Origin: Owenia fusiformis | Lineage: Eukaryota > Annelida > Polychaeta > Sabellida > Oweniidae | Assembly (NCBI GenBank): GCA_903813345.2 | Contig: CAIIXF020000003.1 | Location: 13,280,931-13,344,930 of the forward strand | DNA: 64,000 nt | Direction of reading: 5' to 3' | Shown: piece after piece, positions 55,501-64,000 of the stretch | Layout: the number at the start of each line of letters is the position of its first letter | Numbering within the stretch: position 1 is the stretch's first letter | Notes under the pieces: generated by a model | Database searches by the model: none | Told to the model about the DNA's origin: nothing | What the model saw: only the letters and a program-made list of their open reading frames with translations | Translations under genes and position numbers: made by a program

Positions 55501-58500
55501 GCAAATAAAGTGTCACGCTCGTTTACAAGCAGAGGACATTTTAAGATAAAATGAGAAGGTGTTTGTGGTAATCCACATTTACAAAAAGGATCACTAACAC
55601 TGGTGAAATTATGAGCATATAGCTGTGATTTTAAAAGGAGACCCACTCTGAGTTTGTTAAAAGCAGATTCAACATATCTAGGCATTTCGTTTACCATTTT
55701 GGTAGTGGGTAGCATGGAGACAGGGCTCTTGTAATCTCTTACTAATCTTTTGAAGCGATATATTGGTTGACCTCTTCTCGTGTCAAGGTGTAAATTGTCC
55801 CATATTCTTATTCCATTCAAAATAGTTGACCTCCGGAATGAGTTGCTAGCTTGTAGGAATTAAGTAATGTCTTGTATCTCTCAGTTGCCTAGCCTGAGTA
55901 TTTTCATAGGTTTGAAGTAATTCACAAATGAAAGGTGGATAAGAATTGTACCTACATTTAAACATAAACATTTTATAATGCTCATCTCTTCTAGTTGATA
56001 GGGATTTCCAGTTTAAGGAACTTAGAACAGAAGCAGTGTTTGACCCATGTATAACACCAGAAACCAGACATGCTGCTCTGTAGTGCAATCTATCTAAACA
56101 CTGACGTTTAAAATTTGAAGCTTTACCGTAAATTATATCACAGTAATCAAAATGTGGCATAATGAAAGCATTGTAAATTGTTTCCAAGTGTTTACTCTTA
56201 AGAAGTTTGCTAAGTTTCTTTAAAGGTCTCATTAGAGAAATTACTCTAGTGATAAGTTGATCAATATGGTCATTAAAGTTCAAATGTTGATCCAGAATTA
56301 GCCCCAAGTGCTTATGACTGTTGCATCTTGGTATCAGTTCATCTCCTAGATGTAAAGAGGGAGGTTCAATAAGTAAGTTTCTAGTTCCCGTGAAAATCAA
56401 ATCGGCGCTTTTTTGTGCTTTAAAATTCATCTTCCAGGTATAAGCCCATAAAGCAAGATTATCTAAGTCATTTTGAATGGGTTGGTGTACATGTATGTTA
56501 ATAAAATTCTCACTTTTTTCATAGGAGTTATAGACTGAAGTGTCATCTGCAAAAATAAAGGTTTTTGAGTGCAAATTATCAGGAAGATCATTCACATATA
56601 ATAGAAAAAGCAGGGGTCCTAATACTGATCCTTGAGGAACTCCAGCATTTATGACAAAATTGTTATGCAAATTATTCGGGTTGTTTGTATTGTCGTTAGG
56701 ATTTTCATTGGACCAATTCGAATAGCTATTATTCACTTTATTTTTTTCTCTTCTGTTGGATAAATATGAAGTCATCAGTTTAATAAAGTTTTCCTGACAA
56801 CCGTAACCTTTAAGTTTAAGTAACAAAAGTTGGTGCGGAACTAGGTCAAAAGCTGACGTCAGGTCAAGGAAAACAGAGCGGACATTTTGACTATTGTCAA
56901 TTTCAGCATGAATGTCATGGACAATGTTGATTAATTGGTTAACAGTACTATGTTTCGGTAAAAAGCCACTCTGAAGTTTATAAATCAAGTTATTTTCTAA
57001 AAGAAATGATAAAAAGTGTTTATGTATAATTGTTTCAATTGCTTTTGAGAGGCTGCTTAAGAGGGTTACAGGTCTATAATTTGTAATCAAACCTTTGTCA
57101 CCCTTTTTATAAAGGGGGGTTATGAATCCTTCTTTCCATATATCAGGAAAAATATTTTCTTTAAAAATTTTATTAAAGAGCTCAGCAGTTGGGATTGCTA
57201 GAGATTTAGCACAGACTTTTAACATTTTGTTAGATATATTGTCAGGCCCATGTGCTTTAGAAATGTCAAAATCTTTTAAAATGTTAAATACTTCGTCAGG
57301 AGTAGTTTTGATTTCCTGAAGAATATGATGAGTTCTGGGTCTAAATATTGGAGTGTAATTCTCTGGAATAGTGACAATGTTCTTGCTTACAAAGTATTTC
57401 ATTAAAACATTTGCTTTATCAGAGCTGGTGGCTGCTGATAAGTTGGAATTAGGATCAAATAAAACCGGAATTGATGTAACTTGATTTTTTCCAAGTAAGT
57501 CGCGAATCAAAGACCAGTAGTCAACAGAATTTTTGGAGGTGTTCTCAATTTTTTCCCGAATTTTAAATTCATATTCAGATTTTGCTTCCGAAATCAATTT
57601 GTTCACTATCTTACTTTGAATTTTAAATTGCGTATGATAGGTCAAAATGTTAGTAGATTTGTATTTATGGTGAAGTTTGTTTCTTTTATAAATCTCCTTT
57701 TTGATGTTATTGGAAAACCAAGGATGATCATCATACCTGGTTGAAATAGTCTTATGAGATACATTTGTTTTAATTATATCTAGAAAAGTTCAAACAAAGA
57801 GCTCTGTGGCATTATTAACATTGTTGGTCAAAATAAAATCCCAGTTTGTTTCTGAAATTTTTTGATTCAGTAAGTCAGAGTCTTCTGTTTTAAAATGCCA
57901 TAAGGTTTTCTTAATTGAGGGTTCTCTTGGAATTTTTACCCTAACTTTGCTGACAATTGTACAGTGATCTGAGTTTCCAATTGGCGGGTCAACAGTAACA
58001 GATAAAAGATGATCAGAGTCAGTTATTAAAAGGTCAATGCATGATTTAGAAACATTTGTAATCCGTGTAGGTTCATTTACCAACTGTTGTAGTCCTAGGT
58101 CAAAGAGAATATTATTTAATTCCAAGCCAGCTAAATTATCAATATCGTTGTCATACCAAATTTTATTTCTGGCATTAAAGTCTCCATTTAATATTACACC
58201 ATCTGTTGGTAGCAAAAGCACTTGAGAAATATTTAACTTTAAAGAATCGAAGTAAAGTCTAGTTGCATCTGCTGACATTGATGGTGAGCGGTAGAAAAAA
58301 CCATACATAAAAAACTTTATGTTGAGCCTTAACCTCTACCCAACAATTTGCTAAATCGTGGGACATAAATGTATCACATACTTTAGCCTCAATACTATCA
58401 TGTGACCATAACAAGAGACCTCTTCCCTCATTTGAAGCATACTTAGGTTTACCATATCCTCTTATGAAAAAATCTTTTGAGATCAAATCTTCATCAGTGA

Positions 58501-61500
58501 CATTGCCTGATTCACAAAGTGCTATCAGATGAAAGTCACCATTTAATGCAAAATCTTTTAAAAATGCTAACCTTGTCAGAGAATCTGCCTTCGCACTATT
58601 TATATTTGTAAACAATATTTTCAAATCATCAACTGGGCCTGGGTTTGTTTCTATGTCCCCACATAGCAAAAGTAACAAACTACCAATATGGCCTGGATTG
58701 TGAAAAATTAATGACATACCAGGAATGCAAGTTAGGGTCATTAAAAATACAAAAATTTTCACAAATATCAGTGTGACATTGCGATGCAACTTTACTAGTT
58801 TTTTTATAATACTGAGTAGCAACCATGTTGACATGCAAATATATGTGATTTCGCATAAGAGTGCAATGGCAAATGCTAAAGACTTCAAAAGTATAGGAAT
58901 GTTAGTGAAAGGTAAAACCACTAATGAAATGTCCTCTTCCCCAAACGTCCTCTATGCATTTTTCTGATATTGCAGATTTCTATAGTTAGTAGCTATAGTC
59001 CATGGTATGATTTCTAGGACGTCTGATTAAGGAGTTGGTGACATAATATATGCGCAGCGATATTCGACCTTATATTTAGATACCTACATATGACCCGCGT
59101 CTTGTTTTGTATAGCCGTTATAAATACGACGGGCTTTTAGGTCGAATTATGCCTGTCACTATCAAGGGTCGAAAAACGTATAAAAACTTTTTCGTAATTT
59201 TTTCACAATTTAAAGTACAAACATTAAAAGAAAATCATATGAAAATATTTCAATATAAACATCAAGTTCCTTGGCTATAGTTTTGCGGAATTTGTTCTTT
59301 AAAATACCTTATATATACAAAATCAATGTTTCAACATTTATGTCGTTTTTGGAGATATTGGCAAAGCAATCAATATATTGGCACCTTTATAAACTGTGAA
59401 TAACATATATTTGTAACATGTTAGCTTTTCACTACATTTGTTGTTCATATACATTTTGAGATATAGACGACCGTATTCAGGGGTCAATTGCCAATAAAGG
59501 GAGACTCCATAAACGTAGCTCCGCACCCAATATTTAGAGGGGGCTCATATCTGAAGAACATTTCCGAATTTTTATAAAATCACACAGATACTGCCTGGCT
59601 TCCAAGATGCAAAAATAATTTGCATGGGTAGTGTATCTTGAACACCATTTTTTATGAATGCTGGGGACGCAGTATTAAAAGGATAGTCTCAAAATATATA
59701 GGTCTGGGAAATGTTTAAGGCATACTGCGTCGCTATTAAATGAATTGCACTACTATTTTCACAATTTTATTAATATTTGGTGTCAAATACATATATCTTG
59801 GTATATTTGAAGTCCCAAAACGGCTTAGTTTCAGAAATATCGCAATTTTAAATTCAAAAATGATCGTAAGCTCCGCACCCTCCGCTCATTTGCGCCGCAC
59901 CCAATATTTCCCACAGGCTCTGTCTGCATAGGGTGTACACGTAGAAATAATAAAATCAGGAAAAAAATCAGTTATAAAGGAAACAAACCCACAATATCTC
60001 AAATGATGAACATGGCATAGATCACAAAAACATACTGATTTTGTTACAATTTATCAAAGAACAAAATTATATGCGGTTTTTCAAACCCATACATTTGGAT
60101 ACGGGAGATTGACAAAATACCAATATATACGTTTAATATAAACTAAAGGGATACCTTTGTCCCAAGACATTGTCTATTTCATCGTGCAATTTCTGTTGAA
60201 TCTCTGGGTAGTCCACTGTTAGTGCAACCAATGATCTGAGCTGAGTAGAGGTGGTTACTGTCGCTGCGAGAGTAATGTCGTTTATCATGCCTTTGATAAG
60301 AGCATCATTCAGTTCTCCCCGATTTACATTGATGGCATCAATCACGCCGGATATTGTGGACTTTTCCACGTTGTTCTGTAAAAAGGGTATTAAAGGGATC
60401 GGTATGTTTTTATATCGTTGTCCCGACGGTTGCAAGTAAAAGAAATGCTCGGAATGTATTCAAATCAGATTTTTCCTGGAAACTGCTTACAAATCAGTAT
60501 TTGAATTTAGACTGTAATTAAAGGTTCAAAAATACACGTAACATTATCCCTAAAATATTATTTATCCATATTTTGTTATTTATTCAAGAAGAAGAAAAGG
60601 AGGAACTAGTTCCGGAGGTCTGTGTTCGGAGGATGAGCGATGCATGATATATCAAATTCCAGCAAATCAGAACACACTATTTCAAATACTATGCTAATTC
60701 TAGATCCTAGTGATTTTGAATTCTATTTCCAGAATTCAAGGCTTTCATAATTTCAAGTTTGCTCGTGAGATAATTTTATGCGTGGTACTATTTTATCCAA
60801 TTCATTGTGCACTGTATATACCATATGGTAATGATATGATATGATATATGCACTGTACAAACCTTTGATCGCTGGTATATTTCCGCCTCCATTTGTCTAA
60901 CTGCATCCATTGCCTCCTTAAAAGTTTTACTAGCCTTAATTGGTAGATGGTTCAACCAAGGAATGACATCAATGTACGACGTATCAGCTCCGAACGCAGC
61001 AGGGAATAATTCATCTGCTCGTTTAATTTTCTGGTATAACTGATTATCAGGGCTGAGTCTCTCACCCAATGACTACAATATCACAATAGCGTGGCATTAT
61101 ATTTGCCCGAGGACATTAAAGGATCAATGGATATTTCCTGATACAGAACATAAATTAATTGTCATTCACATGTAAACTAATGGGAAATGGTCGGTTCGGG
61201 GCAAGTCAATTTCTGAATATCTATCAAGGAAATGCTTCACCAAAAATATTCTTATAGAAAATTGAATTGTCTAACTTTTTGCATGCTAAGTGTTAAGTTA
61301 CTTTGTGAACATTCAAGTTACAGAGCTTCAAAGTCATTTTTTAAATCATTTTTCGCCTCCTTTGTTATTTCAATGGGAGAGGTTTTATGAAAAACAATTC
61401 TGACTTTGAAGACCAGCTATAACTTTGTTGAACGTCAAGAAACATATAATGTTCTGTTAAGCAAGTTTACAAATTCAATTTTTTTTACCTAACTTGTATT

Positions 61501-63379
61501 TTTTGCGAGAACTCGGAGATATGGATATTCTATCACAGGCCCGTGGCCAGAGGGGGAGCTGGGGCACCCCCCCCCCCCCCCCAGCCAGAAATTCTTTCAA
61601 AATCATGCAGTTTTTCACCATTCTGAGAATTTTTCACATTATTTTTAGCCAAAATTGTGAAAAAGCCCCCCCCCCCCCCTGGAAAGAAGCTCCCCTCCTG
61701 GTAAAAGCTGGCTACGGGCAAGTATCATATGACTTGCAACAAACCTAGTATCACTTCCCATTGGTTTAACATGGGAATGTCGATTTTCAAAACTTCATCA
61801 GAATTGTCATCAATATCCGACCTATTGCTATTGTTGAAAAATGATGTCAATTTATATTTCAAGCCCTAAAAGTAGTATTTTCTTTACAGACTATGCAAAT
61901 AAAAATTCAAACACAAAAAGGCTTTTTAGTAACTTATCCAATGGGGGAGTTAGGGTTGCCAAATTTATGGAAGGGAGTGTATATCCCCTAGTATTAAACA
62001 TTTTTATTATAATGTTGATATTCTTAACTCACAATTACTATGACGATGCCGATCACCATAGCGTAGATATGATCATAAGGGTCGAACGCTTCTGTCTTGT
62101 TAAATTTGTCAAGGCATTCAAGGATCTCTTCCATGCTGATTCGCTCAATATGGGCCACGCCTTCTCCATACTGTTTTAGTCCTTTCTGGGCAAGTTTACG
62201 CATCGCCCTCCATTCTTTATCAGGTTGCCTATCATTATAAATAATCTTGGCTGGAAGATTTTCTTAATAGCATTATTATAGTAGCGTTCTCACTTATAAA
62301 TCGATAATTAAAACAGCAATGCATTGAATTTGAATGTTTACAAAATTACATGCATGGTGATTTTATTGTCACAGGCACAGCATTTTGACACTTAAACATT
62401 TGCGAGGCGTTTGACTGCGCCTGTTATATCCCTCGATCTAAGTCATTTATTTTGGTATTTTCCAATACCAAAATATTTCAATGACATATTCTTCTTATTT
62501 GTATTTGATTACGTTTTATATATCATACTAATAATCCGTTGCCTGGCCCTTGGAAACGGAAGAAAAAATATAAATGAATATAATGTTTATGAAGGTACAA
62601 AACTAATGTTACTAATTATACATTTTCTGAACATTTCGCATAATTTTGTCACATCTGCTCTATCTTATTTTTTTAAATAGTAAAACGTTAAAAAGTACCC
62701 CTGTGTGATGCACTAATTGAAAAATGACATTTACGTTAAAATAATAATACATTTTTATGTAATGACAATCCTTCACATTGTATATAAATTTTGATTTACA
62801 ATTTGAGTCTCACAAATTGTACTAAAATGCAAATGAAAAGTTTTACTTTTTTTACCTCTTGTGATGACAGGCATAATTAGACCCGAAAGCCTTAAGTTTT
62901 TGCATACGGCATTTTAAAAGCATAAAGACATATGCCCCTCCTTAAATATCGGTTCAAATGTCGCTGTGCATATATTATGCCACGGATTCGTGACAGTACA
63001 CAGTCCTAGCAGTTAACGAACAAATATATTACCTATATCCCATATTTTGAAAGCCGTTGGAGTACATTCCTTGTCTATGTCCCTGCATTCGGCCGCCATA
63101 ATCATCACCGTTGGTAACTAGGACATCGTAAATGGCGTCTCCGTTTACAACTACAACCTCCTCGGTAACTAGATTTAATTTGTATACATCTCCTAGGTCT
63201 TTTTGCCAATCGCACAGCTTTTGGTAAACTCGCTCGTCGGCAATTTGAACGATGTTTCCGAGAACAGGGAGCCCACCGGGTGGAGGTCCAGGTACTGTGC
63301 ATTTCGGACGTCTTGATCTACCCCAGGCGTATTTGAGCAACAACAGGGACACAAGTAACACAGCAATTTCGAATAACAT
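52573..63379 (-). CDS. Cytochrome P450 copy D (CYP2-clan-like), 492 aa, shortened N-terminus
   Basis: Seven exons are 63033-63379, 62033-62228, 60863-61072, 60155-60375, 53743-53896, 52918-53039 and 52573-52801, total 1479 nt. A small deletion and base changes upstream remove the start used in A-C. The first in-frame ATG is the internal MLFE methionine, so translation would begin right at the membrane anchor, 12 residues shorter. All other landmarks (WxxxR, ExxR, PERF, heme Cys) are intact. The I-helix is AATVTT, with Val291 in the acid position. The exon 4/5 junction codon reads Ser where the others read Arg. Intron 1 contains a 0.7-kb block that belongs to intron 4 in the sister copies. Intron 4 holds a LINE and intron 5 a 501-bp TTAA-flanked insert. 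It is likely functional, but less certain than B and C. Confidence 0.9.
53091..53591. mobile_element. TTAA-flanked 501-bp insertion in intron 5 of copy D
   Basis: It is absent from B (empty TTAA at 17120-17123) and C (38685-38688). TTAA lies on both sides (53087-53090 and 53592-53595). The ends are AGTGTGCGCC and, in complement, AGTCCCCGAT. The left part has a hairpin (GTGCGCC with GGCGCAC), then a TATA-box-like CTATATAAAG and, about 45 bases on, a splice-donor-like AGAGGTAAG. The right end has the palindrome CCCGATTTATCGGG. There is no transposase. Either a TTAA-type MITE or a Helitron-like element with a 3' hairpin is possible. Confidence 0.6.
54105..55122. repeat. Intron 4 degenerate tandem repeat, copy D
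   Basis: These are the same units as C 39190-40280. The array is split by the LINE and resumes at 58915. The 11-bp LINE target AAACCACTAAT is at 55112-55122. Confidence 0.75.
55326..55848 (-). pseudogene. LINE ORF, C-terminal segment with CCHC-like motif
   Basis: It continues the reverse transcriptase ORF after a 1-base frameshift near 55850; the shifted frame restores the sequence SNSFRRSTILNGIRIWDNL. It includes CKCGLPQTPSHFILKC, a C-X1-C-X8-H-X3-C arrangement like the C-terminal knuckle of many CR1/Jockey-group LINEs. It probably contributes to nucleic-acid binding. The stop codon is at 55326-55328, with about 200 bases of 3' UTR. Confidence 0.75.
55846..57789 (-). pseudogene. LINE reverse transcriptase segment
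   Basis: The open frame follows directly, in the same frame, after the TGA at 57790-57792. Conserved RT blocks read in order: HGPDNISNKMLK, GDKGLITNYRPVTLLSSLSK, QSGFLPKHSTVNQL, then LDLTSAFDLVPH (first catalytic Asp). [20 protein letters not shown] follows, and then IFADDTSV, with the catalytic pair at 56542-56553. An Asn-rich stretch (NWSNENPNDNTNNPNNLHNN, about 56650-56735) expands the loop before the GVPQGS block. The frame is intact for about 600 codons and ends with a stop caused by the next frameshift. Confidence 0.9.
57790..58308 (-). pseudogene. LINE endonuclease, C-terminal part
   Basis: It carries YRSP, then NGDFNARN (GDFN catalytic block), CIDLLITDS and GNSDHCTI (SDH block), all hallmarks of APE-type LINE endonucleases. 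It is joined to the upstream part by a 1-base frameshift in a T-run near 58310. It ends at a TGA (57790-57792) that lies in the same frame as the downstream RT, so a single base change interrupts an otherwise continuous protein. Confidence 0.85.
58259..58914 (-). pseudogene. LINE N-terminal segment: hydrophobic leader, 2A-like motif, endonuclease start
   Basis: From the truncated 5' end the frame encodes about 80 residues rich in hydrophobic stretches (LLKSLAFAIALLCEITYIC, VTLIFVKIFVFLMTLTCIPG). LLLLLCGDIETNPGP follows. DIETNPGP (58634-58657) fits the 2A consensus DxExNPGP; ribosomes would skip between the last Gly and Pro. The endonuclease begins right after: ILFTNINSAKAD, HLIALCES and GRGLLLWSHDS. 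The first in-frame ATG in the element is about codon 30. The frame is lost near 58310. Confidence 0.85.
58996..59509. mobile_element. Left fragment of the TAGTCCATGG TIR element, copy D
   Basis: It matches B 22472-22985 closely (TAGTCCATGGTATGA through CAGGGGTCAATTGCC). It stops abruptly at about 59509. The central and right parts seen in B and C are missing here. Confidence 0.7.
59510..59934. other. Copy-D-specific intron 4 sequence of unknown origin
   Basis: There is no gene. CTCCGCACCCAATATTT occurs near 59519 and again in a related form near 59893, which suggests a small repeat. It replaces about 3.5 kb present in B and C. Homology with B resumes at about 59935 (B 26517). Confidence 0.5.
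61538..61728. mobile_element. C/G-rich hAT-like MITE in intron 2 of copy D
   Basis: The ends are GGCCCGTGGCCAG and, at the right, CTGGCTACGGGC, with long C-runs inside (61570-61582 and 61666-61679). Copy B has uninterrupted sequence here (about 29793). A short direct repeat, TATCA, flanks it imperfectly, so a full 8-bp TSD cannot be confirmed. Confidence 0.6.
62281..62992. repeat. Intron 4-type block displaced into intron 1 of copy D
   Basis: This block matches B 25090-25795 and C 44645-45350 (right half of the TIR element, ending at GCCACGGATTCGT). In B and C it lies in intron 4, but here it lies between exons 1 and 2. The other copies have only a few bases at this position (ATTATTATATACGAGTACAC). 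Confidence 0.75.
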
Positions 63380-64000
63380 TGTTCCCCATGCGATGACTAC
63401 TAGGTAATTGAATGGGATTTATCTATTACAAGTGTGTATGTAAAACATACACCTCATACACGGTTACACGTATATCTTGAGTGCTCTCGTGGGTCCTACT
63501 ATGCTATGCAAGAGGAGGGAAAACCCCAGAGTTTAAAGATGATAGACATAATTACGTCTCTTGCTTACCACCTTCGTTCGTTCGAATTTTCATCGGCTAG
63601 TTATCAAATACTACACTTCGATGGGATGTTTTAATTGATATATGCATATTCCGTACACCTTTCTTTATCTTGATGTGAAATGAGAAGCTATGATACCGGT
63701 TAACACGCCAGATATGAACATAATATCATTCGAAGCGTATTTCGAAAATTTTGAAACCGCCATTGATGACGTCATTTATTTGTCGACCTTTGACCAATCA
63801 GAGGTGTATGTCATCTCAATACAGGTTTACATTATAAGCGTATGTCATCTTTGAACTCTGGTGTTATTCCCCCTCTGATGCTATGCTATGCGTTTAAGTT
63901 AACCTTATTGGAGAGGTTAAGCAAATACGGTTTTTCAAAACGTATACTTAAACGCAAAGTACATTGAATCAACATAGGATTGTATCGCTTTAGTCTACTT
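63380..64000. promoter_or_regulatory. Upstream region of copy D, putative promoter
   Basis: Similarity to the upstream regions of A-C ends at about 63500, marking the edge of the duplicated array. Beyond it lie a full CRE-like palindrome ATGACGTCAT (63766-63775), a CCAAT box (63794-63798, in ACCAATCA), and nested inverted repeats near 63890-63955 (GCGTTTAAG with CTTAAACGC, TTAACC with GGTTAA). No gene is seen. The regulatory role is inference. Confidence 0.4.

Follow-up and report, generated by a model that had tools for sequence, protein, structure and literature searches.

A group of LINE retrotransposons in the assembly of the annelid Owenia fusiformis carries a 2A-like motif at the front of ORF2, between a conserved hydrophobic leader and the endonuclease. 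We estimate with a probability of roughly 0.75 that this motif is a StopGo (2A) site at which a separate small membrane protein would end. The device for recoding is a known one. The conserved membrane protein that goes with it was not expected, and the site is relaxed to an unusual degree.

The motif lies on the minus strand of the window, which is the whole stretch of 64,000 nucleotides that was analysed (Table 1). The sequence GSLLLLLCGDIETNPGPVDDLKILFTNINS is part of the minus-strand translation of positions 58259-58951, and the octapeptide DIETNPGP, here numbered D12 to P19, is preceded by GSLLLLLCG and followed by VDDLKILFTNINS. The first-pass annotation had placed a fit to the 2A core at this site, which is confirmed by the translation and by the pattern counts: the octapeptide conforms to the StopGo core (D/G/C/N)(V/I)ExNPGP, and a single match to the DNA pattern for D(V/I)ExNPGP was found in the window, compared to none in 100 shuffles. 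The leucine run described in front of the motif is also present, but it belongs to the StopGo context itself, as LLLLCG before D12 matches a StopGo class in which an L-rich run ends with (A/S/C)G (Li et al. 2026, PMC12846837, here and below as far as its text was available).

The window copy is a dead, 5'-truncated LINE insertion. Its alignment to three other copies (L003, L004 and L005) ends at about position 58924, within the first hydrophobic segment, and the native start is therefore missing. Across the first aligned block, it is 98.5% identical to L003. The open pieces downstream of the motif contain the Pfam domains Exo_endo_phos_2 (E 5.6e-12) and RVT_1 (E 5.3e-27), and the endonuclease is broken by a frameshift near 58.3 kb and then by an in-frame stop near 57.8 kb. 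Two other features were observed in the vicinity. The segment at 59500-59936, of which two inverted copies sit in L003 within its LINE copy, is probably an unrelated mobile element, and cytochrome P450-like exon pieces, recognised by eye, are located at 60133-63418 on the minus strand, with the LINE downstream on the same strand.

Table 1. Features of the LINE copy in the window (positions are those of the window).
Feature	Position	Strand	Basis or remark
StopGo/2A core octapeptide DIETNPGP, predicted break between G18 and P19	58634..58657	-	Translation, pattern counts
L-rich hexapeptide LLLLCG (positions 6-11), StopGo exit-tunnel context	58658..58675	-	Translation, cluster representatives, PMC12846837 (available text)
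Leader-protein remnant with hydrophobic segments 2 and 3	58676..58924	-	Lost by 5' truncation: the WRxAVGLFN N-terminus and most of segment 1
Start of APE endonuclease, in the 2A reading frame	58259..58633	-	Frame lost at about 58.3 kb; homologous to the open endonuclease of L001
Remainder of endonuclease, in another frame (Exo_endo_phos_2)	57790..58335	-	
Reverse transcriptase with the C-terminal part; RVT_1 spans residues 229-462	55846..57789	-	

A scan of the assembly (498 Mb, 525 contigs) with the canonical DNA pattern for D(V/I)ExNPGP gave 95 matches, compared to 0 for the reversed pattern. We took 89 of these sites with 1 kb of sequence; five more are in L001-L005 and one is that of the window. 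Many of the matches lie at one and the same place in frames that stay open for over 1,200 codons. In L001 and L002, ORF2 is open across the motif for 1,251 and 1,257 codons, respectively, and the order is a methionine, the sequence WRxAVGLFN, hydrophobic segments, the motif, the endonuclease and the reverse transcriptase (RT). The motif is thus in frame between two coding regions in these two copies, while this arrangement is broken in the window copy. Both domains, Exo_endo_phos_2 and RVT_1, are present in L001, L002 and the window pieces, which identifies the elements as APE-type non-LTR retrotransposons; the narrower, putative CR1/L2 label is that of the first-pass annotation. Another 18 long loci are open across the motif up to the end of the stretch that was taken. 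In viral contigs, there were 17 pattern matches, none of which was confirmed. Identical 2A DNA was observed 12-33 kb apart at C1:58530076, 58541917 and 58554231 and at C2:2480030, 2500182 and 2533541, which looks like local segmental duplication.

The assembly was also searched with the endonuclease of L001 alone, a query that cannot favour the motif. The best 150 of 697 candidates were scored, as were the best 150 of 292 in another protein search, and copy counts are lower bounds for this reason. The start of the domain was reached by 139 of the 150 endonuclease matches listed, and the other 11 begin well inside it. Among these 139, the exact canonical DNA motif is present in 55 and absent from 84, of which we inspected 60, leaving out 24 by hand as likely near-duplicates. 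A recognisable motif was found at the equivalent position in 53 of the 60, with the form D(V/I)xx(N/H)PG(P/Q) in 52 and a histidine at position 12 in one. His14 is combined with Asn16 in 31 of these variant sites (five of them with Gln19) and with His16 in three, nine have Glu14 and His16, eight have Lys14, one has Gln14, and the site with histidine at position 12 has Glu14 and Asn16. Seven of the 60 loci contain no readable motif, and five of the seven have no homology to the leader at E 0.01. The leader is present in L096, where the frame is lost between leader and endonuclease, and L146 has a partial leader that is split from the endonuclease by intervening DNA. In none of the seven does an open leader run on into the endonuclease in the same frame. 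Hence, the expectation that related full-length copies should retain the motif holds for the site, since a motif of the 2A kind is kept in 108 of the 115 endonuclease-anchored relatives inspected from the listed matches. It does not hold for the exact canonical sequence: DxExNPGP is not universal because position 14 is mostly His or Lys in the variants.

The leader was studied in 155 entries, namely the window and L001-L154, 96 of which are open for 120 codons or more ahead of the motif. The signature (W/Y)Rxx(V/I)(G/C)x(F/H/Y/M) is present in 90 of these 96 loci; this is the unselected figure, while the frequencies in the signature columns come from loci selected by the pattern itself (W/Y, R, V/I, G/C, F/H/Y/M). 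The 90 signature-bearing loci form 38 clusters at 80% identity. The encoded leader is about 140 amino acids long, with WRxx(I/V)GxFN near its start and the StopGo site at its end. In an alignment of 30 of the 38 representatives, which excludes six without a methionine near the signature and two with a methionine directly before it, R9, D145, P150, G151 and P152 are invariant (as is M1, the representatives lacking it having been excluded) and W8, G13, F15, L140 and N149 are nearly so. A hydropathy scan, which is not a trained predictor, identified three hydrophobic segments in 31 of the 38 representatives, two in five and four in two, and the count of 31 with three segments compares to a mean of 13.8 of 38 in shuffled sequences. 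The segments start roughly 100, 72 and 36 residues before D12. Many relatives have a 2A-like site immediately in front of the APE endonuclease and downstream of a hydrophobic region, and selection maintains this arrangement, but the upstream product is not the small membrane or signal-type peptide that had been suggested; it is a conserved protein of about 140 amino acids that usually has three hydrophobic segments and the WRxx(I/V)GxFN signature. A simple signal peptide is ruled out by this length, by the three segments that most leaders contain and by the N-terminal signature. N-myristoylation of the MG-type start was also rejected, as position 6 is not consistently Ser or Thr when inspected by eye.

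The leader evolves under purifying selection, which is weaker than at the start of the endonuclease. The dN/dS ratio is 0.16-0.51 in the eight of 11 chosen between-family pairs that have a finite dS, and the Fisher P-values range from 3.4e-3 to 2.2e-14 across all 11 pairs. These pairs were chosen by hand and the last eight codons of the leader were left out of the calculation; a wider pairwise set comprises every pair, 129 in total, that reaches 45% identity and 100 codons. For the first 75 codons of the endonuclease, the finite ratios, obtained for five pairs, range from 0.08 to 0.17.

No methionine is present within 12 residues before the signature in six of the 38 cluster representatives. 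For two of these six clusters it was found in other members, while none was found in the clusters of L112, L129, L130 and L154, which counts against the proposed reading. The leader of L002 has no match in Pfam at E 1, and a Pfam scan of the 30 leaders taken singly returned six families with one member each, the best with an E-value of 0.003. The best profile matches in PDB (E 3.4e-4 and 0.0076) are to membrane channel chains that end in GDVEENPG. It is the 2A part of the profile that aligns to these ends, in GABA-A and NMDA receptor chains, and the tag is placed at chain ends or starts in the PDB matches, which also include one weak match to a designed channel. In our reading, the GDVEENPG ends of the receptor chains are engineered 2A remnants.

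Segments flanked by residues rich in lysine and arginine have these flanks in the cytosol according to the positive-inside rule. The 31 leaders with three segments contain on average 5.2 K+R and 2.1 D+E at the N-terminus, 0.7 and 0.5 in loop 1, 2.4 and 0.3 in loop 2, and 0.6 and 2.1 in the tail. The charges suggest that the N-terminus and loop 2 are cytosolic and the tail lumenal, with loop 1 being neutral.

In the mechanism that we propose, the ribosome would translate the leader first and segment 1 would recruit SRP. Judging from the spacing, the first two segments would be out of the tunnel once G18 is in the P site. The leader would insert in the ER with its C-terminus, as predicted, in the lumen, the exit tunnel would hold the L-rich tail and the octapeptide, and the Gly-Pro bond would be skipped. 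This would free the leader with the 2A tail on its C-terminus, and the same ribosome would continue with a separate cytosolic endonuclease-RT beginning with a proline. The enzyme would then be placed outside the membrane on the cytosolic side, where it could bind its own RNA. Because the C-terminus of the leader is predicted to be lumenal, the endonuclease-RT would face the ER lumen if skipping did not take place. The leader may have a function of its own, perhaps as an anchor that ties translation or the RNP to the ER or the nuclear envelope. A point against this mechanism is that 2A cleavage can be inhibited, in some constructs, by an upstream protein targeted to the ER (PMC2978324, available text).

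The sea urchin NLR proteins provide a different model, in which skipping would be deliberately partial, so that one part of the endonuclease-RT would remain attached to the leader and reach the ER or nuclear membrane, and the other part would be released. Their 2A-like signals also join an N-terminal part, predicted or shown to direct proteins to the exocytic pathway, to a 2A motif, and such signals partition the products (PMC4981915, available text); in the LINEs, altered residues at positions 14, 16 or 19 could likewise tune the efficiency. However, we consider such dual targeting unlikely, as a fused endonuclease would, by the predicted topology, end up in the lumen, where it would be of no use for cutting the target, and as His14 and His16 are nearly fully active in their natural contexts (PMC12846837). 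Furthermore, the leader is much longer than a signal peptide. According to the available text of PMC4981915, the sea urchin system consists of an N-terminal oligopeptide signal in host genes with partial recoding, whereas a three-segment leader of about 140 amino acids in a transposon is found here, and this leader is not an N-terminal oligopeptide signal that itself ends in 2A.

The StopGo site itself varies between the LINE families. D12, P17 and G18 are invariant in all 38 cluster representatives, position 19 is Pro in 37, and position 16 is Asn in 35 and His in three, while position 14 is Glu in 23, His in 12, Lys in two and Gln in one. Upstream, position 7 is Leu in 34, position 10 is Ser, Cys or Ala in 36, and position 11 is Gly in 26 and Asn in nine. 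In total, 21 of the 38 are canonical at all positions and 17 are not. With position 14 left open, the assembly contains 213 matches, compared to nine for the reversed control, and among the 100 of these that were listed, Glu and His occur 45 times each, Lys seven times, and Asn, Gln and Ser once each, where the count for His includes 13 copies of one DNA string from LINEs with a PHD-like part. The same 100 matches represent 25 distinct DNA strings for Glu, 16 for His, four for Lys and one for each of the others. With position 16 left open, there are 128 matches compared to seven for the control, and 27 of the 100 listed have a residue other than Asn, of which 19 have His. At least three changes are required for His14, and at least three for His16, in a tree built from 20 endonuclease-RT sequences, where Lys14 forms a single group with a support of 100/100.

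The variation may be compared to that in viruses, where L7, D12, E14 and N16 are placed against the exit tunnel, L7 being wedged between tunnel bases and its alanine mutant falling to 34% activity (PMC12846837). The viral sites of the L-rich class share with the LINE sites an LLLLSG-like hexapeptide, D12, G18-P19 and the tolerance for His at positions 14 and 16. Histidine is the sole rare variant flagged at either position in the available text of PMC12846837, and most of the LINE variants are the same two. However, His is rare in viruses, in contrast to its frequency in these LINEs, and the flagged variants do not include Lys14 (two clusters), Gln14 (one) or Gln19 (one). These differences count against our reading, as does the fact that many families do not keep Glu14 and that the activity of such variants is context-dependent, N16H being only modestly active in a foreign 2A context and E14Q giving 56% or 26% (PMC12846837). 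The relaxed site in these LINEs may be previously undescribed.

It could be argued that the site in the His14, Lys14 and His16 families is a relic that no longer skips, which would leave a membrane-anchored fusion of leader and endonuclease-RT. Viruses have, almost without exception, Glu at position 14 and Asn at position 16, two residues that contact 28S rRNA, and N16H has only modest activity in a foreign 2A context (PMC12846837); neither Lys14 nor Gln19 has a flagged viral counterpart. Yet the rare viral variants with His at position 14 or 16 are each more than 95% active in their natural contexts (PMC12846837), and in the LINEs D12, P17 and G18 remain invariant although position 14 varies. 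Simple decay does not explain His14, because a change from Glu to His requires two base changes and His is common among the listed matches, where it equals Glu in number. The repeated changes in the tree also speak against a relic, which we regard as improbable.

It is less likely still that the leader is mere upstream context for 2A and that its hydrophobicity is incidental. The full activity of the FMDV 2A needs more than 30 amino acids of native upstream sequence, and an L-rich run is a recognised part of one StopGo class (PMC12846837), but the signature is placed about 130-145 residues upstream of the motif, most clusters have three segments, and the dN/dS ratio of the leader is below 1 even when its last eight codons are left out. 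A chance match in a decayed repeat, for which the truncation and frameshift of the window copy might speak, has a negligible probability in view of the shuffles, the reversed control and the conservation at one position in open copies.

The elements of this group are not all alike upstream of ORF2. Single-ORF elements without ORF1 correlate with 2A in LINEs, and this was considered as a rule here. It is not general in this assembly, because a shared ORF1-like protein is located upstream in nine of the 20 long loci, in one of which (L165) it is a fragment. Two pieces of this protein have no match in Pfam at 0.001. Where it was found, ORF1 ends about 0.8-1.7 kb upstream of a string, GGN(ATH/GTN)GGNTA(A/G), that encodes Gly-Ile/Val-Gly-stop in another frame and lies 26-35 nt upstream of the WR codon. 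The string precedes the signature in 16 of the 38 representatives (for example L001, L002, L022, L104 and L154) and is absent from the remaining 30,528 nt of the same loci. Apart from a few residues, the short ORF that it ends shows no apparent conservation. In four of the 16 (L001, L005, L022 and L024), the stop of the string overlaps the ATG of the leader as TAATG, which resembles the UAAUG stop-start of SART1 (PMC5972666, available text). AG-like acceptors, seen by eye before the string, prompted the idea that a spliced ORF1 tail may be joined to it, but ORF1 homology extends close to the stop codon of ORF1 itself.

Other LINEs in the assembly also contain 2A motifs. At L174:4703-5581 on the minus strand, the ORF1-like protein of a different LINE is headed by a leader beginning MGISVEQWRACIGV, which contains the signature WRACIG and a single hydrophobic stretch and is followed by DVEMNPGP; separate endonuclease-like and RT-like frames are visible by eye downstream. 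A search with the L174 protein gave 125 matches, of which three are near-full, one covers only the leader, 119 begin at residue 70 or later, past the leader and 2A, and two weak ones begin in between. The pattern looks as if a WR-2A module had moved in front of the ORF1 of L174. The loci L173 and L175-L177 encode a hydrophobic or signal-like leader followed by 2A (DIELNPGP or DIHPNPGP), and in L173, L175 and L176 a Cys-rich PHD-like part and an endonuclease come after the 2A, as judged by eye. DNA of the DIHPNPGP type has 19 exact matches in the assembly. By eye, the signal-like leaders of L175-L177 look closer to the sea urchin NLR type (PMC4981915, available text).

The presence of 2A in APE-type LINEs is already known. 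In 2013, Odon et al. reportedly described 2A-like sequences in APE-type LINEs of multicellular organisms, in the CR1, L2, Crack, Rex1 and Ingi groups, several of them active, and Heras et al. are said to have described the 2A of L1Tc in T. cruzi in 2006. The elements of Odon et al. are reported to likewise have an in-frame 2A-like motif, and L1Tc is another of the closest known systems. StopGo occurs in LINEs of trypanosomes and sea urchins according to the available text of PMC5972666. None of the titles and abstract openings listed on this topic, a scope that does not extend to the full text of Odon 2013 and Rao 2025, mentions such a leader membrane protein, and the terms 'transmembrane' and 'hydrophobic' are absent from the available text of PMC4120745 on ORF1 of the Jockey superfamily. 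The membrane protein and the relaxed signal may thus be previously undescribed, although we make no claim that this protein is unpublished.

More specifically, and tentatively enough that we would place it slightly on the doubtful side, this large LINE group may encode a possibly undescribed three-pass membrane protein as an additional product that has a WRxx(I/V)GxFN head and is released by StopGo, with a lumenal C-terminus that would make skipping obligatory. In this fuller account, His14, His16 and Lys14 sites that still work would have arisen repeatedly, and a short WR-2A version would have moved before the ORF1 of a different LINE. StopGo in LINEs would then serve more generally to equip retrotransposons with membrane or secretory proteins.

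LINEs are usually viewed as encoding an RNA-binding protein and an enzyme. If one ribosome made a conserved membrane protein and, directly afterwards, the enzyme, the LINE life cycle would gain a step at a membrane, for which the site of translation, anchoring of the RNP, nuclear entry and evasion of the host are candidates. The LINE families also represent a natural mutational scan of StopGo, and since His14 is as frequent as Glu14 among the listed matches, the tolerance for a rare viral variant can be directly tested in a non-viral setting.
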